A stretch of DNA of 49,969 bases from an uncultured Prevotellaceae bacterium (GTDB lineage Bacteria > Bacteroidota > Bacteroidia > Bacteroidales > Bacteroidaceae): the NCBI GenBank assembly GCA_947167455.1, contig CAMVIB010000020.1, positions 1 to 49,969 of the forward strand. The letters are read 5' to 3'. Shown here piece by piece: positions 15,523 to 47,567 of this stretch. The notes beneath the pieces are model-generated. The model made no database searches and was not told where the DNA came from. It saw only the letters and a program-made list of their open reading frames with translations. The translations under genes and the position numbers were made by a program. The stretch's first letter is position 1; each line of letters begins with the position of its first letter.

Positions 15523-15795
15523 AAAAGGGAAACAGACCCAAGCTTCTTTGACATACAGTCTGAGCGTTGCTGCCTTTATGGCAGTCACACGCTTCACGAC
15601 ATAGGCATAGCCGCATCGGTTAGATCGGGAGACTCATCAATAACATCAGAAAACCGAGAACGTTTCGCGCTCCAATGGCGGGCTGCGCCCCATCGGGGTA
15701 ACCTCTTCACGGAGGCCGGCAGATTACAAAGGACGTGGACACTCAAATCATTCATACTCGGAGTTCTCATCACATCATCGGTGCGGCTTTTTTTT
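15523..15795 (+). ncRNA. Candidate structured RNA of about 270 nt
   Basis: The stretch from the promoter to a run of eight T at 15788-15795 has no convincing coding frame. A 12-bp long-range helix (15609-15620 with 15777-15788, AGCCGCATCGGT with ATCGGTGCGGCT, two G-U pairs) ends at the T-run and closes a domain of about 156 nt. Local hairpins are seen at 15563-15593 (outer AGCGT/ACGCT, inner CTGCC/GGCAG), 15688-15698 (CCCC/GGGG) and 15702-15715. I could not match it to tmRNA, RNase P or SRP RNA by their signature sequences. A 6S-type RNA is possible but unproven. Confidence 0.5.
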
Positions 15796-21406: not shown

Positions 21407-21952
21407 ATGTCAAAGAAATTTGTATGCACCGTTTGTGGCTACATCCACGAAGGTCCCGAACCGCCCGAGAAATGCCCCGTTTGCAAGCAGCCTGCAAGCA
21501 AGTTCCGCGAGCTGAAGGAAGATAAGCTTGACTTCGTCACAGAGCATGTCGTAGGCATCGCAAAGGGTGTTGACCCCGAGATTCTCGAAGGCCTGCACGC
21601 TCATTTCGAGGGTGAGTGCTCGGAGGTGGGAATGTATCTGGCCATGAGCCGTCAGGCCGACCGCGAGGGCTATCCCGATGTCGCCGAGGCTTTCCGCCGC
21701 TATGCCTTCGAAGAGGCCGACCATGCCGCTCGTATCGCCGAGCTGCTCGGCGAGTGCGTCTGGGACACCAAGACGAACCTGAAGAAGCGCATGGAGGCTG
21801 AGAGCGGAGCTTGCGCCGGCAAGATGGCTATCGCCAAGAAGGCCAAGGAGCTGGACCTCGACGCCATCCACGACACCATCCACGAGATGGCCAAGGATGA
21901 GGCACGCCACGGCCGCGGCTTCGAAGGACTCTACAAGCGCTACTTCGAATAA
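21407..21952 (+). CDS. Reverse rubrerythrin (N-terminal rubredoxin plus diiron four-helix domain)
   Basis: A 181-residue protein. The N-terminal rubredoxin-like iron site has Cys7, Cys10, Cys23 and Cys26 ([18 protein letters not shown]). It is followed by a ferritin-like diiron domain with Glu/His ligands in [21 protein letters not shown] and [12 protein letters not shown]. Having the rubredoxin part first is the reverse rubrerythrin order, which acts as an NAD(P)H-linked peroxide and oxygen reductase in anaerobes. It is cytosolic and monocistronic, with its own promoter and a strong terminator. Its metal-site layout matches the N-terminus of NqrC in this window. Confidence 0.95.
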
Positions 21953-22419: not shown

Positions 22420-23049
22420 ATGAGCAACAACACCATTGATTACACATTGAAGCTTCGTCCGGAGAGAGCTTCCGACAAGAAGCAGCGACGGGTCTATTCC
22501 AGCCCCGTGTTCAGAGAGAAAGTTGACAGCAAAGACATCGCCAGCGAGCTAGTATCCTCGACGACGCTGACAGAGACCGACATCATAGCCGTGCTGACAG
22601 GCCTCAGCGAGAGGCTGGCATCCCACCTGCGTAGCGGCGAGCTGGTGACGCTCGAGGGCATCGGCTCGTTCGGCGTTCGCTTAAAGAGCGAACAAGGCAC
22701 AGACCGCAAAGGACGCCTGACGACGAAAGACACACGGGTGAGCGGCATCCTGTTCCGCCCCTCCGAGGAATTTCTCACCAAGGTCAGGGACGTGCACTTC
22801 CGTCTGACCGCCGGTCCTCGCATCAAGATGCCTGACGATGAAGAAATCCTGCAAAAGCTCAACGAGCACTTTGCTACAAAGGACTTTATAACATGTCCCG
22901 TTCTGGCCGACAAGCTAAGTGTGTCGAAACGACGCAGCTATCAGATAGCAGCACGGCTGGTGGAGCAAGGCATCCTCTCGCGCCGTGGCCGCGGCTCAAC
23001 GACCCACTACGTTCTCGGCGAGAAGGGCTCGTCGGCACATACGCACTGA
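22420..23049 (+). CDS. HU-related DNA-binding protein with C-terminal winged-helix extension
   Basis: A 209-residue protein. Residues 1-140 match the Bacteroidetes HU-related family (TIGR01201 type): YTLKLRPE at the start, a helical dimer region (DIASELVSSTTLTETDI), VTLEGIGSFGVRL leading into the DNA arm, and the ILFRPSEEFLTKV strand. Residues 145-209 form a winged-helix-like domain (CPVLADKLSVSKRRSYQIAA, then LVEQGILSRRGRGSTTHYVLG). The usual family member ends before this. The leader carries two tandem arrays that may be its own binding sites. It converges on the RAYT-like gene with an 17-bp gap. Confidence 0.85.
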   Translation: MSNNTIDYTLKLRPERASDKKQRRVYSSPVFREKVDSKDIASELVSSTTLTETDIIAVLTGLSERLASHLRSGELVTLEGIGSFGVRLKSEQGTDRKGRLTTKDTRVSGILFRPSEEFLTKVRDVHFRLTAGPRIKMPDDEEILQKLNEHFATKDFITCPVLADKLSVSKRRSYQIAARLVEQGILSRRGRGSTTHYVLGEKGSSAHTH

Positions 23050-40370: not shown

Positions 40371-40400
40371 ATTATCCCCGGCATTGCTGCCGGGGATAAT
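40371..40400 (-). terminator. Terminator hairpin after nqrF
   Basis: ATTATCCCCGGCA (40371-40383) pairs perfectly with 40388-40400 around a 4-nt loop, 18 bp beyond the nqrF stop. The T-content after it on the minus strand is modest. Confidence 0.75.
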
Positions 40401-40418: not shown

Positions 40419-41708
40419 TTAACCACCGAAGTTATCGAAGCGGATCATATCGTCCTCAACACCGAGCGAATGCAGCAGGTCGAGAACCGTCTTGGCCATC
40501 ATTGGAGGTCCGCAGAGGTAGTACTCGCAGTCCTCGGGTGCCTCGTGAGCCTTGAGGTAGGTATCACCCATGACAGGCGCCACGAAGCCCGGGGTGTACT
40601 TCACGCCAGCGGCATCGGCCTTGGGATCGGGACGGTCGAGTGCGAGGTGGAAGTGGAAGTTGGGGAAGTCCTTCTCCAGCTGTAGGAAGTCGTCGAGGAA
40701 GGGGATTTCCTCTAGGGCACGGGCGCCGTAGAAGTAGTGCATGGGGCGCTTGCGGTCTTCGTCCTTCACGCCGTGGCCTTTGAGCATGTGCATAATCTGA
40801 GCGCGCAGGGGAGCCATACCGGCACCGCCGCCGACCCATATCATCTCGCGACCTGTGCCGTACTGCGGACGGAACTCGCCGTAAGGGCCGCTCATGGTGA
40901 CCTTGTCGCCGGGCTTGAGGCTGAAGATGTATGATGATGCTATACCCGGGTTCACATCCATGAAGCCAGGGCCTTGGTCTTTGGGCTTGAAGGGCGGCGT
41001 GGCGATACGCACGTTGAGGGTGATGATATCGCCCTCGTCGGGGTAATTGGCCATGGAGTAAGCGCGGATTGTGGCTTCGGGGTTCTTACACTTTAGGCCG
41101 AAGAGTCCGAACTTCTGCCATGCGGGCAGATACGTGTCGCCGATGAGGCTCTTGTCAATATCCTTGTCGTAGTCGATGCAGTCGAAGGCCGGGATGCGGA
41201 TCTGAGCGTAAGAGCCTGGCTCGAAGTCCATGTGCTCTCCTGGAGGCAGGGCAACCTTGTACTCCTTGATGAAGGTAGCCACGTTGCGGTTGCCGATGAC
41301 GGTGCACTCCCACTCCTTGACGCCGAGGACGCTGTCGGGCACCTTGATGCCCAGGTCGCCCTTGACCTTGCACTGACAGCCGAGGCGCCAGCCTTCCTTG
41401 ATTTCCTTGCGGGTGAAGTGGCCTTTCTCGGAGTCGAGAATTTCTCCGCCGCCCTCCACGACCTGACATTTACACTGGCCGCATGACCCCTTGCCGCCGC
41501 AGGCCGAGGGGAGATACACACCCTCCTGTGCGAGCGTGGAGAGAAGGCTGGCACCCTGAGGCACGGACAGCTTGTCCTTGCCATTCATAGTGATGGTGAC
41601 GTTACCACTCGGTGAGAGGTAAGCCTTTGCAACAAGCAGAATGATAACCAACGCGATGATGATCACGAGGAAGACCACGATGCTTGTCAGAATAAGTGAT
41701 GTATTCAT
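40419..41708 (-). CDS. nqrF: Na+-translocating NADH:quinone reductase subunit F
   Basis: A 429-residue membrane-anchored flavoprotein, the NADH entry point of the Na+ pump. It has one N-terminal helix (about 5-28). A 2Fe-2S ferredoxin domain carries Cys70, Cys76, Cys79 and Cys111 (SACGGKGSCGQCKC, GCQCKV). An FAD domain has RAYSMANYP, and an NADH-binding domain has MIWVGGGAGMAPLRAQ and YYLCGPPMM. It is the last gene of the minus-strand nqrABCDEF operon. The gap to nqrE (139 bp) is unusually long for such an operon and filled with GTTGACGAG-type direct repeats. Confidence 0.97.
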   Translation of the reverse strand: MNTSLILTSIVVFLVIIIALVIILLVAKAYLSPSGNVTITMNGKDKLSVPQGASLLSTLAQEGVYLPSACGGKGSCGQCKCQVVEGGGEILDSEKGHFTRKEIKEGWRLGCQCKVKGDLGIKVPDSVLGVKEWECTVIGNRNVATFIKEYKVALPPGEHMDFEPGSYAQIRIPAFDCIDYDKDIDKSLIGDTYLPAWQKFGLFGLKCKNPEATIRAYSMANYPDEGDIITLNVRIATPPFKPKDQGPGFMDVNPGIASSYIFSLKPGDKVTMSGPYGEFRPQYGTGREMIWVGGGAGMAPLRAQIMHMLKGHGVKDEDRKRPMHYFYGARALEEIPFLDDFLQLEKDFPNFHFHLALDRPDPKADAAGVKYTPGFVAPVMGDTYLKAHEAPEDCEYYLCGPPMMAKTVLDLLHSLGVEDDMIRFDNFGG

Positions 41709-41847: not shown

Positions 41848-42474
41848 TTAGAGGTTAAGTCCACTGAAGCACATGAAGGCCATTGCCATCAGTCCCACGG
41901 TGATGAATGTGATGCCCAGCCCTTGAAGAGGACGCGGCACGTCGGTATATGCCATCTTCTCACGAATGGCAGCCAAGCATGTGATGGCGAGCAGCCATCC
42001 TATGCCGGAGCCAAGAGCGTATGCGATGCTGTCCCACACGTTGAGGATTGCCTGTGAATTGGTGTCGGGCATGGTGATGCGCTGCTGCATGAAGAGCGAT
42101 GCGCCCATGATGGCACAGTTCACGGCAATCAGCGGGAGGAAGATACCGAGTGCAGCATACAGCGACGGGCTGAAGCGTTCGACGATCATCTCCACCAACT
42201 GTACGATACCGGCTATGACGGCTATGAAGAGTATGAACGAGAGGAAGCTCAAGTCAACATTCTCTACCAGGCAGTCGGGTCCAAGGACATAGACCTGCAA
42301 CAAGTAATCCACGGGAACGGTGATGAGTAACACAAAGGTCACTGCGACACCGAGTCCGAGGGCGGTCTTCACACTCTTCGAGACGGCAAGGTATGAGCAC
42401 ATGCCCAAGAAGAACGCAAAAATCATATTGTCCACGAAAATGGAGCGGACGAATAGGCTTATGAGATGTTCCAT
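41848..42474 (-). CDS. nqrE: Na+-translocating NADH:quinone reductase subunit E
   Basis: A 208-residue protein with six membrane helices, homologous to NqrD and RnfA. NqrD and NqrE together form the antiparallel pair that carries the intramembrane iron site. Typical segments are [23 protein letters not shown] at the start, which contains a ligand Cys, and [12 protein letters not shown] in the second half. The length is normal. It is followed by nqrF after the mini-repeat gap and preceded by nqrD after a palindrome-rich gap. Confidence 0.95.
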
Positions 42475-42489: not shown

Positions 42490-42597
42490 AATTCACAATT
42501 CATAATCCAAAATTCATAATTAGTACGCCGTTCCGGCATTATGTGCTACTGCACTGCTAATTGTGAATTATGAATTGTGCATTATGAATTAGTTAAG
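42490..42597. repeat. AT-rich inverted mini-repeat between nqrD and nqrE (AATTCATAATT family)
   Basis: The left part has AATTCACAATTCATAAT and AATTCATAATTAG. The right part has CTAATTGTGAATTATGAATTG and ATTATGAATTAG, the inverted equivalents. The middle is GC-richer (ACGCCGTTCCGGC). The right arm contains the nqrD stop codon (42589-42591), so the repeat reaches into the gene. Confidence 0.8.
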
Positions 42598-43212
42598 TTC
42601 CTTATTATATGCCCGATGTGCCCAGATTACGCAACCCACGATGATGAGCGACATGGCTGGCATGGTCATCATGCCGTTGTTCATGTAGCCATGTTCGTAG
42701 CACCACTCTGGAACAATCTGTATGCCGAAGAGTGTGCCTGCGCCAAGGAGTTCGCGTACGAAGCCCACGATGACGAGTATGATGGCGTAGCCGATGCCGT
42801 TTCCGATACCGTCGAGGAACGACGGCCAAGGCTTGTTCATCATAGCGAAAGCCTCCAGACGGCCCATAAGGATACAGTTGGTGATGATCAGTCCCACATA
42901 CACGGAGAGCTGAACGCTGACATCGTAGGCGAAGGCTTTGAGGATCTGGCTGACGATTGTCACCAGCGCAGCCACCACCACAAGCTGCACGATGATACGT
43001 ATGCGGTTGGGTATGGAATTGCGTATTAGGGAAATAATCAGATTGGAGAAGGCAGTGATGATTGTCACAGACAGACCCATCACGATGGCGGGTTCCAGCT
43101 GAGCCGTGACAGCCAGAGCGGAGCAGATGCCGAGCACCTGCACAGCAATGGGGTTGTTTAGGTTCAACGGGTTGACCAGTGCCTCTTTATTTGCTTTTGA
43201 TAACAGTGCCAT
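42589..43212 (-). CDS. nqrD: Na+-translocating NADH:quinone reductase subunit D
   Basis: A 207-residue, six-helix membrane subunit, homologous to NqrE and RnfE. The segments VQVLGICSALAVTAQLEPAI (with a ligand-type Cys) and LIITNCILMGRLEAFAM are typical. The N-terminus carries the usual soluble lead (SKANKEALVNPLNLNNP). It lies 28 bp after nqrC. Its last codons and stop are part of an AT-rich repeat, so the C-terminal residues may have been altered by the repeat. Confidence 0.95.
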   Translation of the reverse strand: MALLSKANKEALVNPLNLNNPIAVQVLGICSALAVTAQLEPAIVMGLSVTIITAFSNLIISLIRNSIPNRIRIIVQLVVVAALVTIVSQILKAFAYDVSVQLSVYVGLIITNCILMGRLEAFAMMNKPWPSFLDGIGNGIGYAIILVIVGFVRELLGAGTLFGIQIVPEWCYEHGYMNNGMMTMPAMSLIIVGCVIWAHRAYNKELN

Positions 43213-43240: not shown

Positions 43241-44569
43241 TTACTTTTTCTGGCCGCAGCAAGCCTTGTCGCCATTGCAACCGGGCTTCCCGCATGAACC
43301 ACTTTTGTCACACTGGCCGCTCTTGCAGCAGTCGTTGCCGCTCTTGCACTTGTGGGCAGCTTCGCCGCCTGCCTTGGGGCAGTCGCCACATCCGGCCTTT
43401 CCTTCGGGGCACTGACCGCATTCTGTCTTCTTGTCACAGCAGCAGTCGGCGCATTCACAAGGATTGCAGCACTTGCCGTCTGCACCCATCTGGCAGCAGC
43501 AGTTCTCACACTCGCAGGGGTTGCAGCAGTCGGGCTTTGCCTTGGCACAGCCGTCAGCCTTGGCGCAGGGAGCAATCTTCTCGCAGCTGGCACAGGGACA
43601 TTCCTCGCGTGCGCAGCACTTACCGTCGCAGGCACAGTTGCAAGCCGCGTCGCCGCAGCTTCCGTCCTTGCAGGCACACTGCTTCTTCTGGGCGCAGACG
43701 CACTCGGGCTTGTCGCAGCACTTGGGAGCCTGCTGTCCACAGCCTTCGCCGCTGACGCAGCCACCGGCGGGCTTGGCACCTCCGAGAGCATTGACATACT
43801 GCTGGATTCCGGTGAGCAACATCTCGCCGACGCCCTTTGATGTCAGTGTGGCGCCTGTGACGCCATCCACCTGAGTGTCGGCTTCACTGCTGCCCTTCTT
43901 GACAACCGTCAGAGCGACATTTCCGTCAGCTCCCATGACAGGCCGCCCGATGAACTGGCTCTGGAACTTCTCTTCCTTGATGAGAGCACCCAGACCTGCT
44001 GTCTCGCTCTCATGGTCGAAGTACGCACCGAGCACCTTCTGCATGTCGGGTGTCACGGCGACATAGCCCCACAGGCCGCCCCACAGGCCGCGACCCTTCA
44101 AGGGCAGCACGAGGGCATCGTCACCGTCGGCTGTCTTTGCCTTATATACAGGGAACTTCTCGCCAATCTCCTTGGTATCGACATCGAAGGCATCCTCGCC
44201 CTCGACGACCTGTCCGTCGGGAGTCAGCACACAAGTCTCTTGGATCAATTCGTCGTACTTGCCTTCCACCTCGCTCTTGGCCAGGCCACGGACGTTGAGC
44301 GAAGCAAGTATCTGCGATTTCTTGTCGATAGCCACATTGGCATCCTGTGCGGGCTTCAGTGAGCTGCTGACGAATGCCAGGAGGAAGGCTACGAGCACCA
44401 CCATGACGGCTGCATAGCAGATGGTATATACATTCCCGTTGGTGTTGATGCCCTTCGGTTTCTCTTCCTTGATATGGGAAGTGTCAGCGCCACAGATAGG
44501 ACACTTGTCGGGCATTGATGCGGCTTCGAATGTCTGGCCGCACTGGCTGCATATAAATTTCTTTGCCAT
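43241..44569 (-). CDS. nqrC: NqrC subunit fused to an N-terminal rubredoxin-like knuckle and a C-terminal cysteine-rich tail
   Basis: A 442-residue protein, far longer than typical NqrC (about 210-260). Residues 1-35 hold a CxxC pair set (Cys7, Cys10, Cys23, Cys26; KFICSQCGQ, DKCPICG). One membrane helix follows at about 46-70. The NqrC core has GLWGGLWGYVAV and the flavinylation motif TGAT, in which Thr241 should carry covalent FMN. From about residue 265 to the end, 45 of roughly 178 residues are Cys, in CC, CCC and CxC clusters, with an internal repeat CCNPCEC-xx-CCC. The tail looks metallothionein-like and should face the periplasm. Confidence 0.9.
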   Translation of the reverse strand: MAKKFICSQCGQTFEAASMPDKCPICGADTSHIKEEKPKGINTNGNVYTICYAAVMVVLVAFLLAFVSSSLKPAQDANVAIDKKSQILASLNVRGLAKSEVEGKYDELIQETCVLTPDGQVVEGEDAFDVDTKEIGEKFPVYKAKTADGDDALVLPLKGRGLWGGLWGYVAVTPDMQKVLGAYFDHESETAGLGALIKEEKFQSQFIGRPVMGADGNVALTVVKKGSSEADTQVDGVTGATLTSKGVGEMLLTGIQQYVNALGGAKPAGGCVSGEGCGQQAPKCCDKPECVCAQKKQCACKDGSCGDAACNCACDGKCCAREECPCASCEKIAPCAKADGCAKAKPDCCNPCECENCCCQMGADGKCCNPCECADCCCDKKTECGQCPEGKAGCGDCPKAGGEAAHKCKSGNDCCKSGQCDKSGSCGKPGCNGDKACCGQKK

Positions 44570-44574
44570 ATCTG

Positions 44575-45744
44575 TTACTTGTTAATTGCGCGTTTAGCAC
44601 GTTGTGAAATGTTGCGGTTCACGAAACAGTAGTCGATCAGCGGAGCGAAGAGGTTCATGAGCAGGATGGCGAGCATCATGCCTTCGGGGTAACCGGGGTT
44701 GAGCACACGCACGGTGACAGCCACGAAGCCGATGAGGAAGCCATAAATCCACTTACCGCCTTCTGTGCGGGCGCTGGTGACGGGGTCGGTAGCCATGAAC
44801 ACTGCGCCGAAGCAGAAGCCGCCGAGCACGAGATGCTGGCAGGCATCGAGTGGCGAGAGGCCGAGCGCATTGTACATCCATCCCGTGCAGGCACCTCCGA
44901 CGAAGACGCTCAGCATTGTCTTCCACGAAGCTACGCCAGTCCACAGGAGCAGCAGAGCGCCGAGGGCGATGGCGATGACACTTGTCTCACCGATGGAACC
45001 TGGTATGAGACCTACGACCTGGTCGCAGAAGCTGGTGCTGAGAGTCGTTGCTCCCTGAGCGATCTCACCCAATGGCGTAGCAGCCGAGAACGTGTCGGGC
45101 ACGGCATATCCGAGTCCGCAGATGACATCCTGGCTTACCCAAACGCTGTCGTCGCCCGTCATTGCCGAAGGATAAGAAAAGAAGAGGAACGCGCGCGCGA
45201 TGAGCGCGACGTTGAAGATGTTCATGCCGGTGCCACCGAATATCTCCTTTGCGAAGATTACGGAGAAAGCCACGGCGATGGCGAGGATCCACAGCGGAGT
45301 GTTCACGGGAATAATCATCGGGATGATGATACCCGATACGAGGAAGCCCTCCTGGATTTCTTCGTTTTTCCACTGTGCCACGGTGAACTCGATGCCAAGA
45401 CCCACCACATAGCTGACAATCAGCTTTGGCAGCACGGCGAGGAAGCCGTAGAAGAACATGCCCCAGAAAGTGGCATTCTCCAGTTGTCCGGCTGCGAGCG
45501 CGTTCTGATAGCCCACGTTGTACATACCGAAGAGCAACGCGGGGACGAGCGCGATGACAACGAGCGACATGATGCGCTTGCTGTCGATGGCATCGTGCAC
45601 GTGTGTGCCGCAACGTCCTGCCGTCGTGTTGGGCACGAAGGCGAACGTCTCTAAACCATCATAAAGCGAACGGAAGGCATGGAGCTTGCCACCCTCCTCG
45701 AAGTTCGGCTTTATCTTGTCGAAATATTTTCTTAATGCATTCAT
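44575..45744 (-). CDS. nqrB: Na+-translocating NADH:quinone reductase subunit B
   Basis: A 389-residue multi-helix membrane subunit with about 10 membrane segments; it holds covalent FMN and riboflavin and forms the Na+ path together with other subunits. Typical parts are the cytosolic N-terminus (LRKYFDKIKPNFEEGGKLHAF), GTHVHDAIDSKRIM, and FSAATPLGE, in which the Thr of SAAT should carry FMN. The gene ends 5 bp before nqrC. Upstream, instead of adjoining nqrA directly, it is separated from it by about 490 bp of mini-repeats and a decayed gene. Confidence 0.95.
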   Translation of the reverse strand: MNALRKYFDKIKPNFEEGGKLHAFRSLYDGLETFAFVPNTTAGRCGTHVHDAIDSKRIMSLVVIALVPALLFGMYNVGYQNALAAGQLENATFWGMFFYGFLAVLPKLIVSYVVGLGIEFTVAQWKNEEIQEGFLVSGIIIPMIIPVNTPLWILAIAVAFSVIFAKEIFGGTGMNIFNVALIARAFLFFSYPSAMTGDDSVWVSQDVICGLGYAVPDTFSAATPLGEIAQGATTLSTSFCDQVVGLIPGSIGETSVIAIALGALLLLWTGVASWKTMLSVFVGGACTGWMYNALGLSPLDACQHLVLGGFCFGAVFMATDPVTSARTEGGKWIYGFLIGFVAVTVRVLNPGYPEGMMLAILLMNLFAPLIDYCFVNRNISQRAKRAINK

Positions 45745-45819: not shown

Positions 45820-46208
45820 TTATATATCTGAAATGCCTGAGCTATCGATCTTGCGACGAGTAGTGGCAATCGGACTAACAATGCTTCTGAACAACTCGTG
45901 ACACTCATTATACAATGCTTCCACTCTACAGGGTTTGACCATCTCTGTTTCCATGATAATACCCAACCGATGGAGTGTTTCGTCTAATTCCTCTTCAACC
46001 ATCTTCAGCTTGTTCAGGAAATCTCTATCAGACTTTGCAAGAAGAGCTGACCTGTAATTGGCAGATGGTGACGTACCAGAACGTACAATTTGCCTTGCTA
46101 TGGCATCAGAAGGAATCCGTCCGAGGCATTGAATCTACCATTTTTAATGATGCGGACTGCAAAGTTCTTAAACCTTAATTTGAGTTCGTTGCTATCCACA
46201 ACATTCAA
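45820..46208 (-). pseudogene. Decayed four-helix-bundle (S23-type) protein gene inside the nqr operon
   Basis: Reading the minus strand, fragments in three frames join into one family sequence: NELKLRFKNFAVRIIK (frame 1, from a TTG near 46208), then MVDSMPRTDS (frame 2, after a slip in an A-run), then PSDAIARQIVRSGTSP leading to SANYRSALLAKSDRDFLNKL and VEEELDETLHRLG (frame 3, ends at 45820). Two frameshifts therefore inactivate it. Intact relatives of about 120 residues are the four-helix-bundle proteins also found as intervening sequences in 23S rRNA genes. A 60-residue remnant frame from 46002 remains open. The base composition is AT-rich, unlike the nqr genes. Confidence 0.75.
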
Positions 46209-46238: not shown

Positions 46239-47567
46239 TTACATGTTTTCTTTACGTAGGATATCCAGTCCCTCGCGCACGATACGTTGCAGTTCCAGTT
46301 TGGAGCTATCGACGAACTCGGCCAGAGCGAAGTCCTCGGGAGCCACCTCGTAGATGCCGAGAGCCTCTTGACGGTCGATGTCGCCAGCTATGATAGCCTT
46401 AACGAGATAGCCGGCGTATATGTCCATGGGGAACACACGGTCGTACTCGCCCGACATAATCATGTGTCGTTCGCCGCCCTTGATACGTGCATCGAGCTTA
46501 TACTCAGTGCTCTTGGGCTTCAGCCAGCTGAAGTAGCTGCGGCTCGTGGAGAACTCATTGAAGCGCGGGGCAATCCATCCGAGCATCTCATAGACGTCGT
46601 CTCCCTCGGGGATGACGGTGACTTCGGTGGCATGAGCGCCGATGAAGCCGTCCTTCTGCACCTTGACGCCCACCATTGGGTTGCCACTGATGATGCGCAG
46701 GCTCTTCTTCTCGTCGATCTGCCCGGCAAGTACTGCTGCGACGGGTGCACCGACAACCACCTTGGCATACTTCGGAGCCTTCACTTCGCTTCCTGCCACG
46801 GCGATGGTGCGTGTGAGGTCCACCTTGCCCGTCAGAGCCAGCCGACCTACGAAGATCACCTCTTCGGCACCCATTGTCCATACGACTTCGCCTTTGTTGA
46901 TGGGATCGACATGGTTGATCTGCACGCCTACGTTGCCGGCAGGTGCCGGTCCGTCGAAGATGGTGACGGTGGCATCCTTGGCACCCGTCAGAGCCTGTGC
47001 CTTCTGCTTTGCGCTGATGCCGAGGTTCACCTTGGCAATCTTGCTGAGCAGCGACAGGCCAGCCTGGAACTCCTTCTCCTGTCCCTTGAGGACATACTCG
47101 AAGTCGGCTGCCAGAGGCATACTGTTGAATGCACTGACGAAGATAGCCTTGGGCTTGTCATCAGGATTTGCCACCACGTCATAGGGACGCTGACGGAAGA
47201 ATCCGAACAGGCCGCTCTCGCAGAGCAGCATCAGCGGGTCTTTCTCCGTGAAGGTGGCTGCCTCCTGCTTGCCATCGGCATCTACGCGCACGCTCATCAC
47301 CTTGCGGCGCTCGCCGCGCTCCACGAGAGCCACGGTGCCGCTGACAGGCGAAACGAACTTCACTTCGGGATGGTTCTTGTCAACGAACAAGGCATCCCCG
47401 ACCTTGACAGTGTCACCCTCCTTGACAACGACCTTGGGCTTCATGCCGTAGAAGTCGTCGGGCACCAGTGCGTACTGTCCCGAGACCTTCGTCTGCATGG
47501 TTTCCAAGTTCGCTTTGCCCTTTAGGTTTACGTCGAGGCCTTTGCGTAACTTGATTACATTTGCCAT
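46239..47567 (-). CDS. nqrA: Na+-translocating NADH:quinone reductase subunit A
   Basis: A 442-residue cytosolic-side subunit of the Na+ pump, without membrane helices, in the family's usual length range. The N-terminus (VIKLRKGLDVNLKGKA) and the blocks VKEGDTVKVGDALFVDK, KFVSPVSGTVALVERGERR, NHVDPINKGEVVWTMG, PMVGVKVQKDGFIG and MIMSGEYDRVFPMDIYAGYL are characteristic. It is the first gene of the minus-strand operon, with a promoter about 42 bp upstream. A decayed gene separates it from nqrB, so expression of nqrB-F depends on transcription through about 490 bp. Confidence 0.96.
   Translation of the reverse strand: MANVIKLRKGLDVNLKGKANLETMQTKVSGQYALVPDDFYGMKPKVVVKEGDTVKVGDALFVDKNHPEVKFVSPVSGTVALVERGERRKVMSVRVDADGKQEAATFTEKDPLMLLCESGLFGFFRQRPYDVVANPDDKPKAIFVSAFNSMPLAADFEYVLKGQEKEFQAGLSLLSKIAKVNLGISAKQKAQALTGAKDATVTIFDGPAPAGNVGVQINHVDPINKGEVVWTMGAEEVIFVGRLALTGKVDLTRTIAVAGSEVKAPKYAKVVVGAPVAAVLAGQIDEKKSLRIISGNPMVGVKVQKDGFIGAHATEVTVIPEGDDVYEMLGWIAPRFNEFSTSRSYFSWLKPKSTEYKLDARIKGGERHMIMSGEYDRVFPMDIYAGYLVKAIIAGDIDRQEALGIYEVAPEDFALAEFVDSSKLELQRIVREGLDILRKENM

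Follow-up and report, generated by a model that had tools for sequence, protein, structure and literature searches.

We analysed a 49,969-nucleotide stretch of DNA (the window; GenBank assembly GCA_947167455.1, contig CAMVIB010000020.1, positions 1 to 49,969) from an uncultured Prevotellaceae gut bacterium that is kin to rumen species. The window carries a complete nqrABCDEF set for the sodium-pumping NADH:quinone oxidoreductase (NQR). Here, we report that its NqrC subunit ends in a 178-residue tail containing 45 cysteines, which is conserved in related genomes and which may serve as a metal sponge.

The six genes lie in order on the minus strand, to which all nqr coordinates refer, with nqrC (43241..44569) between nqrB (44575..45744) and nqrD (42589..43212). 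Together with nqrA (46239..47567), nqrE (41848..42474) and nqrF (40419..41708), nqrB and nqrD were identified by profile matches. The nqrC gene is a single in-frame open reading frame (ORF) of 442 codons with 51 cysteines in total, encoding a rubredoxin-like head, a membrane helix, an FMN domain and the cysteine-rich tail. The initial annotation had read these parts as one fused protein, and the ORF and the profile matches bear this out.

The core is that of an NqrC. It matched TIGR01938 at 170.4 bits (curated cut-off, 144); narrower NqrC models, e.g., NF003750, matched below their cut-offs. Residues 45-70 (44360..44437) belong to a long model helix (43-90) containing the only membrane helix; an FMN_bind domain follows (residues 161-251, 43817..44089; PF04205, 55.7 bits; cut-off, 22). 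Inside that domain lies a TGAT flavinylation motif (residues 238-241, 43847..43858), invariant in both NqrC alignments, and covalent FMN is predicted from motif and domain together. The structural model aligns with Vibrio cholerae NqrC chains from residue 45 on, in a comparison dominated by the core, not by the head or tail. Membrane helix, FMN_bind fold, flavinylation motif and operon place are shared with the NqrC of characterised Na+-NQR (V. cholerae; Parabacteroides distasonis, 3lwx; Prevotella bryantii). Those proteins differ in having neither head nor tail, as the initial annotation had held (P. bryantii, 210 residues; V. cholerae chains, 257 residues). NqrC is the most divergent nqr subunit in relatives with and without a tail alike, and faster core evolution linked to the tail is therefore not claimed.

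Composition and conservation of the tail

The tail (residues 265-442, 43244..43777) starts about 24 residues past the flavinylation site, joined directly to the flavin domain. Its cysteine fraction is 25.3% (45 of 178 residues), matching the first estimates of length and content, and it contains no F, W, Y or L. The richest 100-residue stretch of the nqrC frame holds 31 cysteines, compared with 14 in the next-best open stretch of at least 100 codons in the window. Module A (KCCDKPECVC ... CASCEK; residues 283-331, 43577..43723) is present, absent or swapped among relatives. Module B (residues 348-378, 43436..43528), recognised from the sequence and from relatives, contains CCNPCECxxCCC twice, as CCNPCECENCCC at 348-359 and CCNPCECADCCC at 367-378; the internal duplication described initially is thus present. 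Tandem Repeats Finder found no tandem repeats in the tail DNA at score 30, so the two copies have diverged at the DNA level. The C-terminal module D (HKCKSGNDCCKSG..SGSCGKPGC..KACCG; residues 406-442, 43244..43354) is the best-conserved part of the tail. From residue 261 on, all 10-residue blocks of the model have a predicted local distance difference test score (pLDDT) below 60, except one at 62, and the tail is predicted to be disordered.

The initial annotation had also stressed CC, CCC and CxC clusters. The richness in cysteine stands, but CC and CxC in the window tail occur at the level of shuffled tails of the same composition (z, -0.3 and -0.5), and metallothionein-like clustering found no support in this shuffle test. 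Density and conservation of the cysteines, not their spacing, are what is unusual. Thirty tails of the main clade (defined below by the core tree) average 21.1% cysteine (standard deviation, 2.4) and 0.3% F/W/Y, and six tails of other lineages 18.0% and 0.5%.

Another species (genome G372) carries a protein of 440 residues, 92% identical to the window NqrC over residues 1-441, and the same protein occurs in the named record RUG367. Compared with the G372 protein, the tail has a nonsynonymous substitution rate (Ka) of 0.075 and a synonymous rate (Ks) of 0.822 (Ka/Ks, 0.091), and 44 of 45 cysteines are kept, 11 of them by silent TGC/TGT exchange. Of 10 pairs, one was saturated and the other nine gave a tail Ka/Ks of 0.08-0.17. 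In a pooled comparison with 29 relatives from the main clade, 726 of 784 aligned cysteines of the window tail are kept (93%; 209 by silent TGC/TGT exchange), versus 1,761 of 2,672 other residues (66%); a further 521 cysteine and 1,272 non-cysteine cells faced gaps in this count. The tail is under purifying selection.

An assembly error or frameshift was rejected, because the same tail stands in frame and under selection in other genomes; no frameshift or stop precedes it. Searching with the tail alone picked out five of 22 candidate proteins, each of which has FMN_bind, and a search of its own genome (E up to 10) found it in one place only. A separate gene or shared module is not supported, since the tail-alone matches are NqrC-type proteins only. 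In L084 and G395:C1:113617-114628, a tailed-type nqrC is split into two frames inside the core, by assembly error or as a pseudogene.

Distribution of tail and head

A search with whole NqrC scored 7,998 candidates, of which 2,054 matched at E up to 0.001; among the best 120 of these, 81 have at least seven cysteines after the flavinylation region. Within the genus, 139 genomes were searched, 133 gave some match and the NqrC region was taken from 122, leaving out 11 in which the sole match was weak (E above 1e-7). One open frame was found in 120 of the 122, and these 120 proteins form the genus set used throughout. With a cysteine tail defined as at least seven cysteines and at least 12% cysteine, 49 carry one (7-45 cysteines), 15 more have 3-6 cysteines and 42 have none. 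Across 399 genomes from 30 genera of the family, tails related to that of the window were found in eight, counting the genome of the window, and all eight belong to its genus, so the tail is not a common property of the family, a point that the initial annotation had singled out for checking.

A tree of 134 NqrC cores (bootstrap not settled; the broken L084 left out) places 33 tailed rows in one clade at 100/100. That main clade holds 33 of the 49 tailed genus proteins, and the other 16 have mostly unrelated cysteine-rich sequence. Main-type tails are mosaics of modules A and B, a repeat C and the C-terminal D in varied combinations, and identical cores can carry tails of differing length (L038/L051 and L149/L166). 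Tails of other lineages are built of CADCTKECKDGKK repeats (L149), CGQGQC repeats (L150), PMAGCPKEDC repeats (L025) or GCGMHEGCPKAEG repeats (L091); different cysteine-rich repeat tails were likewise seen on L165, L166, L099 and L103.

Likeness between tails was scored with cysteine positions fixed and the other letters shuffled (120 shuffles). Main-type tails resemble one another at z of 10-24, except L006 (z, -1.2 to 3.7). Most cross-lineage pairs score below 4; L091-L005 reaches 7-9 and a few pairs 4-5, so common descent or exchange is possible for some of these tails. On the core tree the cysteine-tail label needs 10 changes, at least six of them forced by well-supported branches, which disfavours a single origin of all tails. 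Repeated independent origin at the NqrC C-terminus is the simplest reading of tree and tails, though not a proof; a single gain, followed by many losses and by turnover of the sequence, is less likely.

All 28 main-type tail records (L059-L086) are metagenome-assembled genomes or uncultured. Thirteen name a ruminant host (goat, yak, sheep, red, roe or reindeer, or water buffalo) and 15 name no host. Two records named for horses (L093 and L099) have tails of other lineages.

The head (residues 1-33, 44471..44569) has cysteines at 7, 10, 23 and 26. Scanned alone, it matched the rubrerythrin-type rubredoxin-like family RUBY_RBDX (PF21349) at 38.3 bits (cut-off, 26.5), a match missed in the scan of whole NqrC, and model confidence over residues 1-40 is higher (block means, 77-93 pLDDT). 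It is predicted to be cytoplasmic and, from the four cysteines, to hold a putative Fe(Cys)4-type site. The reverse rubrerythrin encoded at 21407..21952 on the plus strand has RUBY_RBDX (residues 5-33) ahead of its Rubrerythrin domain (63-127), with cysteines at the same four positions, as had been noticed initially; the two heads are 42% identical over query residues 1-38 (E, 4.2e-5). The NqrC copy shares the four cysteines and passes the family cut-off, but its fusion partner is NqrC in place of a ferritin-like diiron domain. The initial annotation had presented the head as an extra module; it is present, but 73 of the 120 genus proteins have a four-cysteine head, as does NqrC of Segatella paludivivens. 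The head is ordinary within the group, and the tail is the notable feature. Head and tail occur together in 31 proteins, tail only in 18, head only in 42 and neither in 29 (two of these cut by contig ends), and the head thus varies independently of the tail and probably has a separate role. Heads without a cysteine tail were observed in several genera, including that of S. paludivivens (L101); these heads have a CGYIHEG motif closer to rubrerythrin.

Function of the tail

We tentatively read the tail as a periplasmic, membrane-tethered, metallothionein-like metal sponge that would protect NQR, at a probability of about 0.45, with metal binding predicted from cysteine content. The globular domain of NqrC is periplasmic in NQR, according to the available text of PMC12174285, so by homology to solved NQR structures the tail likely lies outside the inner membrane, in the periplasm, in agreement with the placement of the soluble part in the initial annotation. 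A search of the 139 genus genomes, many of them incomplete, covered the thiol oxidants DsbA, DsbB and VKOR only. It found no DsbA above the cut-off (one match below it; control, 8 of 14), no DsbB (control, 6 of 14) and VKOR in 11 genomes (control, 3 of 14). Enzymatic oxidation of the tail is therefore improbable. In an anaerobe without a Dsb oxidant its thiols are probably reduced, and reduced thiols would bind soft metals. NQR is specially sensitive to soft metal ions such as Ag+: in the accessible portion of PMC6560451, NADH:quinone oxidoreduction by P. bryantii membranes is half-inhibited at ~0.75 μM AgNO3, an effect ascribed there to NQR. The tail, with its predicted disorder, would keep soft metal ions (Cu, Zn, Cd and Ag are predicted) close to the sodium pump, and their capture would likely protect the metal-sensitive complex. 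A cysteine density under selection, with the rest turning over freely, is the pattern expected of a metal sponge. Of the roles proposed initially, metal binding fits best, and nothing found speaks specifically for iron supply to NqrDE or for oxygen sensing.

The tail resembles bacterial metallothioneins (SmtA, PmtA and MymT) in its high cysteine content and few or no aromatics. It differs from them as the C-terminal part of a 442-residue respiratory membrane subunit, with cysteine spacing at the level of chance and no family match in Pfam or the Protein Data Bank (PDB). SmtA (56 residues) and PmtA (70 residues) are small free proteins with metal binding reported in the cytoplasm, and the available text of PMC12193353 describes no periplasmic bacterial metallothioneins. 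We therefore do not file the tail as a metallothionein, though it would work like one. In the DUF4266/DUF3570 flavinylation-linked systems (PMC8238504, available portion), a cysteine-bearing periplasmic part is likewise tied to a flavinylated protein; there, however, it is a small protein of its own with only one CxC motif, whereas here a cysteine-rich sequence is fused to NQR. Neither head nor cysteine tail of NqrC is described in the available text of PMC6560451, PMC10739449, PMC12174285, PMC8238504 or PMC10979944, and literature on NqrC with rubredoxin, cysteine-rich or metallothionein contains, by title and abstract, no description of the fusion.

Several observations weigh against a sponge. 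No Pfam family matches the tail (E up to 10), nor does the sequence of any solved structure in PDB (E up to 1). CC, CxC and CxxC in main-type tails are not above shuffled tails of the same composition (z, -1.1, -2.3 and -6.1), and the spacing thus lends no support to metallothionein-like clusters. The genome of the window is only 77% complete, which limits what the oxidant search can say of it. No cysteine tail is present in 71 of the 120 genus proteins, some congeners (L206, L207 and L244) have at the same place an acidic tail with 0-1 cysteine, and L006 of the main clade, whose tail has lost its sequence likeness to the others, retains only seven cysteines. Cytoplasmic NqrF carries the Ag+ site of NQR, so a periplasmic sponge would protect the complex only indirectly. 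A literature search found nothing on heavy-metal inhibition of NqrF.

Other functions were weighed on the same evidence. The tail cysteines might serve as a redox buffer or electron tap, cycling between dithiol and disulfide; the NqrC FMN would supply the electrons that reduce them, and reducing power would in this way leave through the pump for the periplasm. The direct junction with the flavin domain agrees with this, and with no DsbB and no DsbA above the cut-off in the 139 genus genomes an oxidised tail would have to arise by chemistry. CxxC, however, is rarer in main-type tails than in shuffled ones (48 versus 105.6), and a tuned relay would keep its spacing, whereas the modules turn over freely, which argues for a sponge rather than a relay and leaves the tap unlikely. 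About as unlikely is a nearly neutral, low-complexity extension, grown by repeat slippage at a C-terminus that tolerates tails and with functionless cysteines. Length varies widely, even between identical cores, many tails are tandem repeats and the acidic tails are poor in cysteine, all as such drift would have it; the low Ka/Ks, the preferential retention of cysteines through silent exchanges and the arrival of mostly unrelated tails at similar cysteine fractions speak against it.

Delivery of iron or another metal to NQR, e.g., to the NqrD/E cluster, or to periplasmic clients is very unlikely. During catalysis NqrC approaches the NqrD/E cluster (PMC12174285, available text), which would bring a tethered store close to it, but that [2Fe-2S] site is also found in tail-less NQR, including that of P. 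bryantii (PMC10739449, as far as its available text goes), and most genus members do without a tail. Least probable is a structural role in which disulfides or metal bridges would cross-link the tail to envelope proteins or attach it to the surface; the high cysteine content and predicted disorder of the chain would suit it, but the lack of DsbB and of above-cut-off DsbA in the genus genomes searched does not, and no partner is indicated by the other results.

If the tail does bind metals, a metal buffer is built into the periplasmic side of a central energy-converting complex. Cysteine tails that recur on NqrC in several lineages would suggest that NQR faces a common pressure in the guts of herbivores, perhaps the action of soft metals on an enzyme sensitive to silver. 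A wider proposal, which we regard as improbable, is a periplasmic metallothionein on NQR gained several times in herbivore-gut Bacteroidota, with FMN keeping the thiols reduced; with the cytoplasmic head, NqrC would then be a two-sided redox and metal hub.

Other features of the window

The 494-bp gap between nqrA and nqrB contains a start-less 23S-rRNA-IVP/four-helix-bundle frame (45820-46119, minus strand; PF05635, 36.2 bits; cut-off, 33.8), apparently truncated at its N-terminus; no ORF of at least 80 residues is listed on that strand of the gap. A 13-pair terminator-like hairpin (40371-40400) lies just past the end of nqrF, in a scan that gave six such sites versus 5.8 expected by chance. 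On the plus strand, the window also encodes a 6S-like Bacteroidales-1 RNA (15609-15794; 139 bits) and an HU-HIG DNA-binding protein (22420-23049; PF18291, 77.8 bits).
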